Below, piece after piece: positions 23,620-58,317 of a stretch of 64,000 nt of DNA. Every line of letters begins with the position of its first letter. Positions within the stretch are counted from its first letter, which is position 1. Position numbers and translations under genes: made by a program. This DNA comes from Porphyridium purpureum (lineage: Eukaryota > Rhodophyta > Bangiophyceae > Porphyridiales > Porphyridiaceae), in NCBI GenBank assembly GCA_008690995.1, contig VRMN01000004.1, positions 1,240,001 through 1,304,000 of the forward strand, read 5' to 3'. The notes beneath the pieces are model-generated. The model was given only the letters and a program-made list of their open reading frames with translations. It had not been told where the DNA came from and did not search any database.

Positions 23620-24831
23620 TCAAGATATACATTTATCGGCCACGGGATCGTGCAGAGCGACCCGGCGGCTCTGCAATTCACTTCGCACCGCGTCTTCGCG
23701 ATCACGATCATTGCACTCAATACGCAGCACGCGAGGTTGTAATCGCGCGAGGTCTTCCGGGACCGCACACATCCCGTACGCAAAGTGCGAGGTGTCCCAG
23801 CTCGTCAGACTTTCTGGTGGCACGTCCAACAAGCCCTTTGCCAAGTGCATGCTAGGCGAATCATTCGAGGAGTCTCGCCGTAAGCACTCCTCGATCCACC
23901 CTTCCAAGGCGGTCAGCGAGTGCATATCAAATTCAAAGTAAATCATGCCTGTATCAGGAAGCAGGCCATTGTCCTGCAAGATTTGATCCTTCGCGCCCTG
24001 CTGATCGAATTGGAGCACAATGGAATGGTGTAGCTGGTGCAGAGGAAACGGGTTCTGCAGAAAGTACACATCGTGATCCACGCTCAGCACGTTGTATCCA
24101 AGCGAGAGAAAAGTTCGCGTCATGAGCGGTACCAACGCGTGGTCCAACTCCTCCAGTTCCATTTGCATGTCCGACGCCACTTGCATCAGCACCGACGAGG
24201 CACGCAGGACGGGCATCGCCCGGCTTCTGAAATTGGCAAGGACGAGCGCACCTTTCGAGACTAGATCATTTACAACCACAACCACTTTTGGCTTTGGCGA
24301 GCTCATCGCGCTCGAAGTCAGCTCGCATTCTAGCTCGGAGATTCGGTTCTCCACCCACTCCACAGACTGTGCTGTGTTGGGCGCAGCCTGATCTCCGGCG
24401 TAGGCGTTCGCATTCAAGTTTTTCAGGAACGATGTCGGGTTGACAAAAAACAGGACGAGATCGTCTGGACCTGCGCCGTCGGAACCATCCGTCCCAGAAC
24501 TACCTTCGGCGTTCGCGCCGCCGTCGAGATCAGGCACTGCCAGCACGTCATCCCATTCCTGTGCATCCATGTACGAAATAAGACGCTCCGCCCTGTAGCT
24601 CGCGTCATCGCGTGGGGTGGATGACCGCCCATTCCGCTCTGCTTGTCTCCCTGCCGCTGGCTCTCTCCCGACGAAGGCATCTGCGCGGCGCGCCGAGGCC
24701 GAGGCGCCGCGCGCGTCTGACGCCTCGTGAGGCAGCTTCACGTACTGCATCATCAAAGTCTCGACAGCCAAGAGCAGCGCGGTCAGAATTCCCAGCAGCG
24801 AACATAGCCGCAGCACACGCGACGCATTCAT
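23620..24831 (-). CDS. Type II membrane nucleotide-diphospho-sugar transferase (GT77-like)
   Basis: The 403-residue protein has an N-terminal anchor (VLRLCSLLGILTALLLAVE, about 6-24), a low-complexity stem to about 125, then a GT-A type domain. It contains KPKVVVVVNDLVSKGAL, SLGYNVLSVDHDVYFLQNPF, with the DxD metal-binding motif near residue 252, and LPDTGMIYFEFDM, where family members often have a Gly-Phe-x-Tyr/Phe segment. This order matches the nucleotide-diphospho-sugar transferase family that includes plant xylosyl- and arabinosyltransferases. It probably acts in the Golgi lumen on glycoprotein or wall polysaccharide; donor sugar unknown. It ends tail to tail with the other type II protein. 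Confidence 0.82.
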   Translation of the reverse strand: MNASRVLRLCSLLGILTALLLAVETLMMQYVKLPHEASDARGASASARRADAFVGREPAAGRQAERNGRSSTPRDDASYRAERLISYMDAQEWDDVLAVPDLDGGANAEGSSGTDGSDGAGPDDLVLFFVNPTSFLKNLNANAYAGDQAAPNTAQSVEWVENRISELECELTSSAMSSPKPKVVVVVNDLVSKGALVLANFRSRAMPVLRASSVLMQVASDMQMELEELDHALVPLMTRTFLSLGYNVLSVDHDVYFLQNPFPLHQLHHSIVLQFDQQGAKDQILQDNGLLPDTGMIYFEFDMHSLTALEGWIEECLRRDSSNDSPSMHLAKGLLDVPPESLTSWDTSHFAYGMCAVPEDLARLQPRVLRIECNDRDREDAVRSELQSRRVALHDPVADKCIS

Positions 24832-24984
24832 TGCGCTTCTCGCCCTTTCACCAACTCATCCACACCAAGGCTTTCCCCCTTCGCGCATGCACACACACAT
24901 TCACAATCATCCTCGGAATTCCTCCACCCATAAATATTGTGTATATCTATTTTAGAAATTCCGCTCGTGCCTTACTTTTACTGA

Positions 24985-25067
24985 GGCCCGCTGGCGAAAC
25001 GGATATCGCGCCTGACTTCGGATCAGGAGGCTGTGGGTTCGAGAGTACGAAGGTCCCACGTGGGTCG
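24985..25067 (+). tRNA. tRNA-Arg (anticodon UCG) with a T-loop intron-like insert
   Basis: The cloverleaf folds completely. Acceptor GGCCCGC (24985-24991) pairs with GTGGGTC (25060-25066) with two G-U pairs; the discriminator is G25067. D-stem GCGA (24994-24997) pairs with TCGC (25006-25009) around a loop with GG. Anticodon stem CCTGA/TCAGG holds loop CTTCGGA with anticodon TCG at 25018-25020. Variable loop is AGGCT. T-stem GTGGG (25033-25037) pairs with CCCAC (25055-25059). The T-loop is 17 nt rather than 7; removing 10 nt (25044-25053) leaves TTCGAGT and a normal 73-nt tRNA. The A box TGGCGAAACGG (24992-25002) is perfect, but the insert interrupts the B box after GGTTCGAG. Ectopic tRNA introns are known in red algae. 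Confidence 0.92.
25044..25053 (+). other. Predicted ectopic tRNA intron in the T-loop
   Basis: Within the 17-nt loop, TTCG (25038-25041) can pair with CGAA (25048-25051). This gives a 4-bp helix flanked by AGA (25042-25044) and GGT (25052-25054), each 3 nt, a bulge-helix-bulge as cut by the tRNA splicing endonuclease. Cutting after the second base of each bulge removes exactly 10 nt and restores TTCGAGT. Confidence 0.75.
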
Positions 25068-25085
25068 TTGTGAAAACATCGTAGA

Positions 25086-25091
25086 TTTTTT
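25086..25091 (+). terminator. Pol III T-run terminator of the tRNA gene
   Basis: A run of six T residues lies 19 bases after the discriminator base, a standard RNA polymerase III termination signal. The short AT-rich stretch at 24931-24956, with ATAAATATT and TATATCTATTTT, could serve as the upstream TATA-like element for the tRNA and for the minus-strand gene at 24831. Confidence 0.6.
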
Positions 25092-25312: not shown

Positions 25313-26407
25313 TCATATTGCGTCGTCCTCGGTCCTGCATCGCTCCAAGGCGGCTTCAATTTTCTGCAGGAACCAATTGTGGTCGAGTATGGGTCGAACG
25401 GTCGGACAGCGCCACATGCACTTGCCATGTAGCTGCTTTTCAAGGACCAGCGCGCCGGGTAAAGCACAGAACGGGTTTTCAGGTGATGTTCTGAGCCGCA
25501 CGGCAACAATTGAGTTACGTGCCTTGTTGTGAATATTGTCATCGAAAAAGATGTGGACTGCGTGCCCCCTCGTCAATGTGAGCCAAAGCGGCTTCCCGCA
25601 TTCAGGCGCAAACCCGTTCCCTCGCCACCACTCATAGTCATCTGAGATCGCCATGATGCTCATGCCCTCCGCGTGCGGGACATGTCGTCCTTCAATGACG
25701 GCTACGGCTTCCTCCTCTGACTTGCATGCTCGTCCTGTCGACGGCTGCGAAAGCACAAACTGCCCGGACTGGCGGTCGTACCTGCCGTCCCACATGTGAG
25801 ATTCATCGCACTTCATTTCATGCCATCCAGACGCGGAAGCTGGTGCGCCAGCTGGTGAGGGTTCCGTTTCCGCAAATGCATTGATGGCGGCACACACGTC
25901 GCTCAAGTCATGACCGAACGTACGCAGCACAATCCGGGTGTGACCGCTTCGCTTTCGCAGCTCACGGAGGGTGTGGAAAAAGGCGGGGAGCACAAAGTAG
26001 TGCTTGCCATCCTGGGATAAACGCGGGTCAATCGTCTCTCCCTCGGGTATGCGAAGAGCGTCGAGCATCTCGAGGTAGAGGCCGCGCAGCGAAGCTCCAT
26101 AATTACCGGGCTCGGTAAAAGTTTTGGCGTGTGCTCGATACACGTCGTAAAAGAGCACGCAACCATCTGGCCACACCCACGACGTGTTGATCTCGGGTCC
26201 GCTTTCAGGATTCTCCCAAATGGGCGGGCCACTTGGATCGCTCTCGCGCCGCACGAAGACCTGCTTTGCGAGCGCCTTGTTCAAACAGTCCTCGAGCCCG
26301 TCGCCTCCCGCCGGATCTGTCACCAGAATAGTTTCATTGAGGTCGAAATGCAGCACTAGGCGTGGGCAGTCTGCTTCAACCGCAGGCATGGTCATGGTCT
26401 CATTCAT
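25313..26407 (-). CDS. HAD-like hydrolase-fold protein
   Basis: The 364-residue protein has HAD motif I in HFDLNETILVTDPAGGD (about 20-36), where the second catalytic Asp is replaced by Asn-Glu, a motif II/III-like RIVLRTFGHDLSDV (about 158-171) and a late HIFFDDNIHNKARNS (about 304-318) resembling motif IV DD. Such proteins are common and uncharacterised in protists and algae. Because the usual DxD of motif I reads DLNET, phosphatase activity is uncertain, although DxN variants exist in the family. No leader is visible. Its start is 85 bp from the OTU protease gene on the other strand, and the tRNA lies downstream of its stop. Confidence 0.75.
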   Translation of the reverse strand: MNETMTMPAVEADCPRLVLHFDLNETILVTDPAGGDGLEDCLNKALAKQVFVRRESDPSGPPIWENPESGPEINTSWVWPDGCVLFYDVYRAHAKTFTEPGNYGASLRGLYLEMLDALRIPEGETIDPRLSQDGKHYFVLPAFFHTLRELRKRSGHTRIVLRTFGHDLSDVCAAINAFAETEPSPAGAPASASGWHEMKCDESHMWDGRYDRQSGQFVLSQPSTGRACKSEEEAVAVIEGRHVPHAEGMSIMAISDDYEWWRGNGFAPECGKPLWLTLTRGHAVHIFFDDNIHNKARNSIVAVRLRTSPENPFCALPGALVLEKQLHGKCMWRCPTVRPILDHNWFLQKIEAALERCRTEDDAI

Positions 26408-29070: not shown

Positions 29071-29177
29071 TGGCCGCTGGGCCGGGGAATTCCACGCTCC
29101 GCTGGCCTGGTGACGTGAGCACACAGCCTCGGCTGCTGGCAGATCTGCAACACCAACAGAACGGACAGACAGACACT

Positions 29178-29199
29178 CACACACACACACACACACACA
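29178..29199. repeat. (CA)11 microsatellite
   Basis: An uninterrupted CA dinucleotide tract lies in the intergenic region. Similar CA/GT-rich tracts occur at 50163-50174 and 58141-58199. Confidence 0.9.
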
Positions 29200-29413
29200 G
29201 CTTGGAGAAAGAAAGCACGCGCGAGTCGAGTAGGTGCACATGTGCGCGAGCGAGCGAAAGTGCCTACGTGCGGGGTGGGTGCGCACGGCGAGTGAATGGA
29301 GAGGTCCGTATCGAATGATTGATTTTCTTCCGTTGCTCGTGGTGTGAGGGCAAAAGCGCACCAAAGACAGGGAGGCAAAAAGCGAGACGTACCCAAGACG
29401 GAATGGGATTCTT

Positions 29414-57872: not shown

Positions 57873-58317
57873 CGCGCCTGCCGCCTCGTTCTGGCGGCAC
57901 GCACGACTCCACCAGCTCCCCTGTCGCGCGGCTGTCGCGCGCTACGCCACCAACCCACCCGAGCTGTACTCGCACTACTGTACCGATCACTACTGTACCC
58001 CTCCGAGATCTGCGCATTCGTTGCGCATCCCGGAGCAATCTCGCGTGCGCCCAAGTCGATCGATGTTGAGCGTGGAGGTGGAGCTGTGGATTGGGGGGTT
58101 CAAGGCAAGCGCGCGCACAGATACGTCCACGCAGATATATACACGCACGCACGCACGTACACACACCCACACACACACACCCACACACATACACACACTT
58201 GTGTCGTTCGTGCGCCACGCAGTCCGTGCGGGAATCCGGCAGTTGTGCGCGCGGGCTGGTGGGGCTGCGCCGACACATGGGTGGCTCTGCCGCAACATCA
58301 CTGCCGTGCGTTGAGTG
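57873..58317. promoter_or_regulatory. Divergent promoter with GTAC cluster and CA-rich tract
   Basis: On plus, AGCTGTACTCG (57963-57973), CTGTACC (57979-57985) and CTGTACCCC (57994-58002) lie within 40 bp. They are the reverse complement of the GAGTACAGCT and GGTACAGT forms and point toward the minus-strand gene at 57872. A CA/CGCA-rich tract follows at 58141-58199. A plus frame over this region (57525-58514) is not called. Confidence 0.5.
58141..58199. repeat. CA/CGCA-rich simple-sequence tract
   Basis: The tract is an imperfect run of CA with CGCA and CCCA interruptions in the divergent promoter region. Confidence 0.85.

Follow-up and report, generated by a model that had tools for sequence, protein, structure and literature searches.

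The window analysed here is a 64,000-nucleotide stretch of the genome of the red alga Porphyridium purpureum (G000:C11:1240001-1304000), and it contains a tRNA-Arg(UCG) gene whose T-loop carries a short insert. The gene lies at 24985–25067 on the forward strand, as do all parts of the locus given below unless stated otherwise, and direct reading together with folding agreed with an earlier note on its coordinates, strand, paired stems and anticodon. The stems are fully paired: 7 bp in the acceptor (two of them G-U), 4 in the D-stem, 5 in the anticodon stem and 5 in the T-stem. The anticodon TCG (25018–25020) sits in the loop CTTCGGA (25016–25022) and is also the one that ARAGORN reads from the spliced form. 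Direct reading and a bulge-helix-bulge (BHB) scan (k=6) place the 5' exon, tRNA positions 1–59, at 24985–25043. The predicted intron, AGTACGAAGG, follows at 25044–25053 between positions 59 and 60, and by direct reading the 3' exon (25054–25067) consists of position 60, the 3' strands of the T-stem and acceptor, and the discriminator G. Both the centroid and the minimum-energy fold are cloverleaves, with a folding energy that is unremarkable (z −1.08; 26 of 200 shuffles equally good).

As it stands, the T-loop is 17 nt long (TTCGAGAGTACGAAGGT). Leaving out 25044–25053 yields the 7-nt consensus loop TTCGAGT and a 73-nt tRNA, just as the earlier note had it, and this changes the ARAGORN result from no gene to one tRNA-Arg(tcg) of 73 nt. 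The insert thus lies away from the 37/38 position and its removal restores a canonical tRNA, as expected of an ectopic intron. In the window, neither ARAGORN nor Rfam at its gathering threshold called a tRNA; the Rfam tRNA model scores the locus at 26.3 bits against a cut-off of 29, with the T-arm wrongly drawn. An intron-tolerant covariance search of the kind that had been proposed does recover the gene, with 73.9 bits for our model R3, which allows a T-loop insert, although this score is not independent because the spliced Arg(UCG) is one of the 10 training rows of R3. The parts of the gene stand in normal order, and a permuted arrangement was rejected: model R1, whose training rows included a re-ordered Arg(UCG), gives 55.9 bits on the window with the acceptor mispaired, against 74.2 bits for the permuted Lys(UUU) gene described below.

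Long open reading frames on the opposite strand flank the gene (23620–24831 and 25313–26407), and a 153-aa mechanical open reading frame on the same strand (24612–25073) overlaps it. A TATA-like element, TATAT (24942–24946), starts 43 nt upstream, and a T6 run, a probable RNA polymerase III terminator, lies at 25086–25091. Both assignments draw on the enrichment of such signals near the 22 tRNA genes that we placed in the genome: a TATA-like 5-mer occurs within 60 nt upstream of 19 of them, as against 2.8% of sampled positions, and T5 or longer within 60 nt downstream of 21, as against 4.5%. The two signals occur together at 18 of the 22 genes, Arg(UCG) included, and at 0.28% of the background, for which 20,000 positions were drawn from the window and the examined loci. 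They are presumably used by RNA polymerase III. Elsewhere in the window, 29177–29249 and 58111–58221 are (GT)n-like simple repeats with weak chance matches to miRNA and scaRNA families, and the top-ranked organism-labelled relatives of a lipin-like protein are red algal (Rhodosorus, Cyanidiococcus, Pyropia). The sequence TGGTATAGTCGGTATTAT, probably a dispersed repeat, was seen at nine places on eight contigs (G000: C2, C9, C11, C14, C19, C39, C40 and C43), and on C11 it lies near both ends.

One DNA search for a second, uninterrupted Arg(UCG) gene scored a single candidate, the gene itself; a diverged or disrupted copy would escape such a search. CGA makes up 95 of the 633 arginine codons in 12 long open reading frames of the window. 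This codon can also be read by tRNA-Arg(ACG) through inosine. An uninterrupted tRNA-Arg(ACG) gene is present in the genome (L004) and may share the decoding of CGA, so the Arg(UCG) gene need not be essential.

In the predicted fold of the T-arm, GUGGG and UUCG lead into a 6-nt loop, AGAGUA, and return through CGAA, the 3-nt bulge GGU and CCCAC. The T-stem, whose 5' strand GTGGG (25033–25037) pairs with 25055–25059, serves as outer helix h and is directly prolonged by a 4-bp central helix H, in which TTCG at tRNA positions 54–57 (25038–25041) pairs at all four positions with CGAA inside the intron (25048–25051). Cutting at the 5' side is predicted within the loop AGAGTA (25042–25047), between 25043 and 25044, and at the 3' side within the bulge GGT (25052–25054), between 25053 and 25054. 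The earlier note had described a 4-bp helix with two 3-nt bulges; the TTCG/CGAA helix and the GGT bulge are indeed there, whereas AGA is part of the 6-nt hairpin loop. An inner helix h' is absent, so the description as a near-ideal BHB goes too far: in the class names used in PMC3978253, the motif is of the relaxed hBH form (T-stem as outer helix, H with 4/4 pairs, bulge GGT) and not the strict hBHBh'.

We scanned the eight frames that leave a 7-nt loop, and 59/60 was the only one to give a complete central helix (4/4 pairs) on top of an outer helix formed by the T-stem, compared with 1/4 central pairs at 58/59. Omitting 25043–25052 or 25044–25053 gives an identical mature sequence, and it is therefore solely the BHB cutting rule that speaks for 59/60. 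Since random 10-nt inserts produce the same helix in 3.6% of 200,000 trials, the Arg(UCG) gene by itself is weak, suggestive evidence.

The same position is used elsewhere in the genome. The earlier note had presented an isolated case and proposed looking for the insert in other tRNA genes; four of them carry one at 59/60, namely Met(CAU) (16 nt, L011), Tyr(GUA) (11 nt, L046), Gly(UCC) (12 nt, L034) and Asn(GUU) (16 nt, L056). In these four and in Arg(UCG), UUCG at positions 54–57 pairs 4/4 with a YGAA of the intron, two further nucleotides follow and then the predicted cut, and no other frame gives 4/4 pairing. Model R3 scores Met at 57.8, Tyr at 43.0, Gly(UCC) at 34.9 and Asn at 28.5 bits, none of which was among its training rows. 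The YGAA helix of Tyr, Gly(UCC) and Asn is not independent evidence because the search pattern itself required YGAA; Met(CAU) and the permuted Lys(UUU) were found without this requirement. In Lys(UUU) (L013), the halves are joined at 59/60 and the leader ends in CGAA-AT^C, again with 4/4 pairs. The T-loop insert of Val(CAC) (L026) departs from this motif, with 2/4 pairs and a C at position 54. This gene (L026 1494–1625, G000:C43) also has an anticodon-loop intron.

Some of these genes are interrupted more than once. By eye, tRNA-Tyr contains two more introns, one in the D-loop and one at 37/38, and tRNA-Asn(GUU) (L056 1377–1538, G000:C44) is interrupted in the D-arm and at 37/38 and carries some ten extra nucleotides in the variable region, so that, with the T-loop intron, it perhaps holds four. 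At five 37/38 cis introns, the central helix has 3/4 pairs in Arg(UCU), 2/4 in Tyr, 3/4 in Gly(UCC), 4/4 in Asn and 1/4 in Val, where the borders are doubtful. With 4/4 at one of five such introns, the clean helix is a trait of the 59/60 site and not of every disrupted gene.

Permuted genes form a second group. Lys(UUU) (L013 1506–1606, G000:C2, minus strand) is of type IV, with a 27-nt intervening sequence, and its score with R1 comes from a model that had the gene's own parts in training. The others are of type II. Thr(UGU) (L016 1443–1536) reaches 62 bits with model R2, also with its own parts in the training set, while Cys(GCA) (L023 1454–1529; 50.3 bits), Leu(CAG) (L098 91–214; 30.5 bits) and Leu(AAG) (L082 1425–1531; 27.3 bits) were outside it. 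With R2, loci of ordinary tRNAs score as high as 24.8 bits (L002), so the two leucine genes score barely above them, and the better evidence is that ARAGORN calls the joined halves tRNA-Leu (aag) and (cag). The junction helix has 4/4 pairs in Lys and Thr, 3/4 in Leu(CAG), 2/4 in Leu(AAG) and 1/4 in Cys, which is to say 4/4 at one of the four type II junctions. Leu(AAG) has, in addition, an 8-bp inner helix between leader and trailer.

The genome searched comprises 22,164,627 bases in 46 contigs. tRNA genes were placed through Rfam matches, A-box and T-loop patterns and three purpose-built covariance models (R1–R3); Met(CAU) was absent from model training, and the T-loop model was built without Gln, whose short variable loop misaligned. 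The Rfam tRNA model matched at least 17 places, 12 of them over the cut-off, with 63 of 475 candidates scored. These 17 were discarded as a count of the genome's tRNA genes, as an intact tRNA-Ile(AAU) and others lay outside the list. Altogether 22 genes were placed. Seven are uninterrupted (Lys(CUU), Phe, Arg(ACG), Gln(CUG), Ala(CGC), Leu(CAA) and Ile(AAU)), and ARAGORN calls all seven; 15 are disrupted, counting L012, in which the insert was not located. The 22 are not a random sample, as part of the searches targeted disrupted genes. In untargeted searches, disrupted genes made up six of the 12 Rfam matches over the cut-off and four of eight A-box matches.

For the disrupted genes as they stand, ARAGORN makes no call in 13 of 15 cases, Arg(UCG) included; it takes Gly(CCC) for tRNA-SeC and reports Ala(UGC) as tRNA-???. 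Once the introns delimited by eye were removed or the halves joined, the expected anticodon was returned for 13 of the 15 (Arg(UCG), Met, Tyr, Gly(UCC), Asn, Lys(UUU), Thr, Cys, Leu(CAG), Leu(AAG), Arg(UCU), Ala(UGC) and Gly(CCC)), Val(CAC) and L012 being outside this run. Two of these calls run one nucleotide past the given ends on either side, making 77 instead of 75 nt for Asn and 75 instead of 73 nt for Arg(UCU). A separate ARAGORN call, tRNA-Ala(tgc), lies at L018 1488–1579 (G000:C1), in addition to the Ala(UGC) gene of L010, which has its insert in the D-arm.

Matches to the T-loop patterns were rejected as a count of introns; reversed controls match more often. The pattern GGTTCGA...YGAANNNCC occurs at 31 places compared with 73 in the reversed control; 28 of 30 loci, that is, all except the window's own (L042) and a repeat copy (L050), were scanned with the T-loop-intron model and gave three full tRNAs (L034, L046 and L056). 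GGTTCAA...TGAANNNCC occurs at 16 places (control 23) and AGTTCGA...YGAANNNCT at 25 (control 92), the latter including the Met gene already described and one site within the L082 gene; none of the five flanks examined, two for the former pattern and three for the latter, matched R3. The TGGC-type A-box pattern has 81 places (control 73). Scanning 30 of these loci gave a tRNA at L082 only, the permuted gene, and of the places outside the 30, some are genes known otherwise, while L098 and L099 were added to the examined loci afterwards. The TGGT-type pattern has 46 places (control 61), and none of the seven examined was convincing (L094, 15.7 bits with R2).

The genome also encodes homologues of the eukaryotic tRNA splicing machinery. 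Two loci carry the Pfam domain tRNA_int_endo, and their open reading frames match solved human chains of Sen2 (L019, best E 1.2e-13) and Sen34 (L020, best E 4.5e-20); catalysis by this domain relies on the residues Y, H and K. A Sen54 N-domain was found on contig C8, and with it Sen2-like, Sen34-like and Sen54-like parts of a splicing endonuclease are all present. RtcB is encoded at two loci (G000:C3:263918-265243 and G000:C1:1357653-1358798).

Taken together, we consider it very likely that this nuclear tRNA-Arg(UCG) gene of P. purpureum is functional and carries an ectopic 10-nt BHB-type intron at 59/60. The earlier note's central proposal, an intron of this length that splits the B box and is cut at 59/60, is strengthened by the helix and bulge, the four sister genes, the permuted gene and the Sen2, Sen34 and Sen54 homologues, and the insert is very probably a real intron that is excised in the cell. 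We envisage that RNA polymerase III transcribes the gene by way of the TATA-like element, the A box and the first part of the B box and stops at the T6 run. In the pre-tRNA, the helix between U54-U55-C56-G57 and CGAA would prolong the T-stem, with the GGU bulge on one side and the 6-nt loop on the other. The Sen2/Sen34 endonuclease could then cut after 25043 and after 25053, and a ligase, for which the twice-encoded RtcB is a candidate, would join the ends to form the T-loop TTCGAGT. Because U54 and U55 would be paired until then, modification of the T-loop probably follows splicing. In Cyanidioschyzon merolae, the Psi55 enzyme cmPus4 is inactive on tRNA while the T-intron remains (PMC9602550). 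By analogy, a block of this kind in P. purpureum would be explained by the pairing of U55 in the central helix.

Could the locus instead be a decayed tRNA gene with a chance insertion in its T-loop, as found among spare eukaryotic copies? In eukaryotes, insertions in the D- and T-arms mostly affect one of many synonymous copies and are taken to mark pseudogenes, according to PMC4090602; neither ARAGORN nor Rfam at its gathering threshold calls an Arg(UCG) gene here, and chance would supply the helix in the 3.6% of random inserts noted above. However, such decay would be expected to leave broken stems, lost signals or a spare copy. The four stems of this gene are intact, the promoter-like element and terminator are kept, and the one DNA search, in which a diverged copy would be missed, gave no other copy. 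Omitting the insert gives back the 7-nt consensus T-loop, and four further tRNA genes share both its position and its helix, and we therefore regard a pseudogene as very improbable. An error of sequencing or assembly confined to one gene is scarcely credible: indels are the typical error of the kind of data used, and the errors to be expected are unlike an insertion of 10 nt that is able to pair with TTCG and lies at a site common to four other genes. The assembly, very probably that of strain CCMP1328, is a Nanopore-Illumina hybrid (PMC6811547).

An intron may also be real and yet be excised by an activity other than Sen2/Sen34, or have its borders at 58/59 with the same product. The mature sequence is indeed the same for both borders, and 3-nt T-arm introns in the nucleomorph of Guillardia theta are excised by unknown means (PMC4090602). 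Against this, the central helix keeps 1/4 pairs at 58/59 compared with 4/4 at 59/60, and homologues of Sen2, Sen34 and Sen54 are encoded, which leaves such a route a slim chance. We therefore retain the reading of a BHB-type intron at 59/60 in a working gene.

The Arg(UCG) intron is of a known kind, since T-loop introns, relaxed motifs and 3-nt T-arm introns have all been described before. Of wider reach is the finding that the tRNA genes of a mesophilic red alga are, as a set, heavily disrupted. In searches of openly available papers, no description of such a set for Porphyridium appeared among the matches listed, though one may exist elsewhere; in the main text of the P. purpureum genome paper (PMC6811547), so far as consulted, the term 'tRNA' is absent. 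We tentatively entertain, while thinking it somewhat less than probable, that disruption in P. purpureum is on the scale described for C. merolae (fixed-site T-loop introns, three introns in Tyr and perhaps four in Asn, and permutation of both type II and type IV) and is partly ancestral to hot-spring and mesophilic red algae. Were some disruptions ancestral, such as the type IV Lys(UUU) of both algae, then heat, acid or a 16-Mb genome would not be their cause.

With disrupted tRNA genes in a red alga that is mesophilic, can be cultured and has a long-read genome, their origin becomes testable: they may have been inherited from a red-algal ancestor, or they may have arisen anew once an endonuclease was no longer bound to measure out 37/38. 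The T-loop introns, natural substrates that share a single fixed motif, also offer a test of how a Sen2/Sen34 enzyme of a eukaryote cleaves at sites other than 37/38. In practical terms, ARAGORN as run would leave most of the placed disrupted genes out of an annotation, and the two that it does report have a wrong or open identity.

The closest known system is that of C. merolae, to which the earlier note had implied a link, although the alga studied here is a different and mesophilic one. In the tRNA-Ile(UAU) gene of C. merolae, the T-loop is interrupted by an intron that has a BHB motif, and the ectopic introns of C. merolae resemble that of Arg(UCG) in lying in red-algal nuclear genes, in the T-loop and within a BHB-class motif (PMC9602550). 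The motifs of C. merolae Ile are hBHBh' (PMC9602550), whereas Arg(UCG) has no inner helix. Homologues of Sen2, Sen34 and Sen54 occur in both algae, and both have a type IV permuted tRNA-Lys(UUU), split at 59/60, and a type II Leu(CAG) (PMC3978253 for C. merolae). The P. purpureum Lys(UUU) junction uses the same UUCG/CGAA helix as Arg(UCG), which is itself a plain cis intron in contrast to the type IV permuted genes of C. merolae. Resting on few genes, the coincidences in Lys(UUU) and Leu(CAG) are a hint, not proof, of common origin. The G. theta nucleomorph, of red-algal origin, has non-canonical tRNA introns of 3 to 24 nt, some of them in the T-arm, whose excision was demonstrated by RT-PCR (PMC4090602), and it shares with Arg(UCG) very short non-canonical introns, the T-arm position and red-algal descent. 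Many of the G. theta introns lack a defined BHB (PMC3978253), whereas Arg(UCG) has a 4-bp helix and a bulge. Finally, a T-arm position and the relaxed hBH class also occur among archaeal tRNA introns (PMC3978253); the endonuclease of P. purpureum, in contrast to the symmetric archaeal enzyme, is of the eukaryotic Sen2/Sen34 type.
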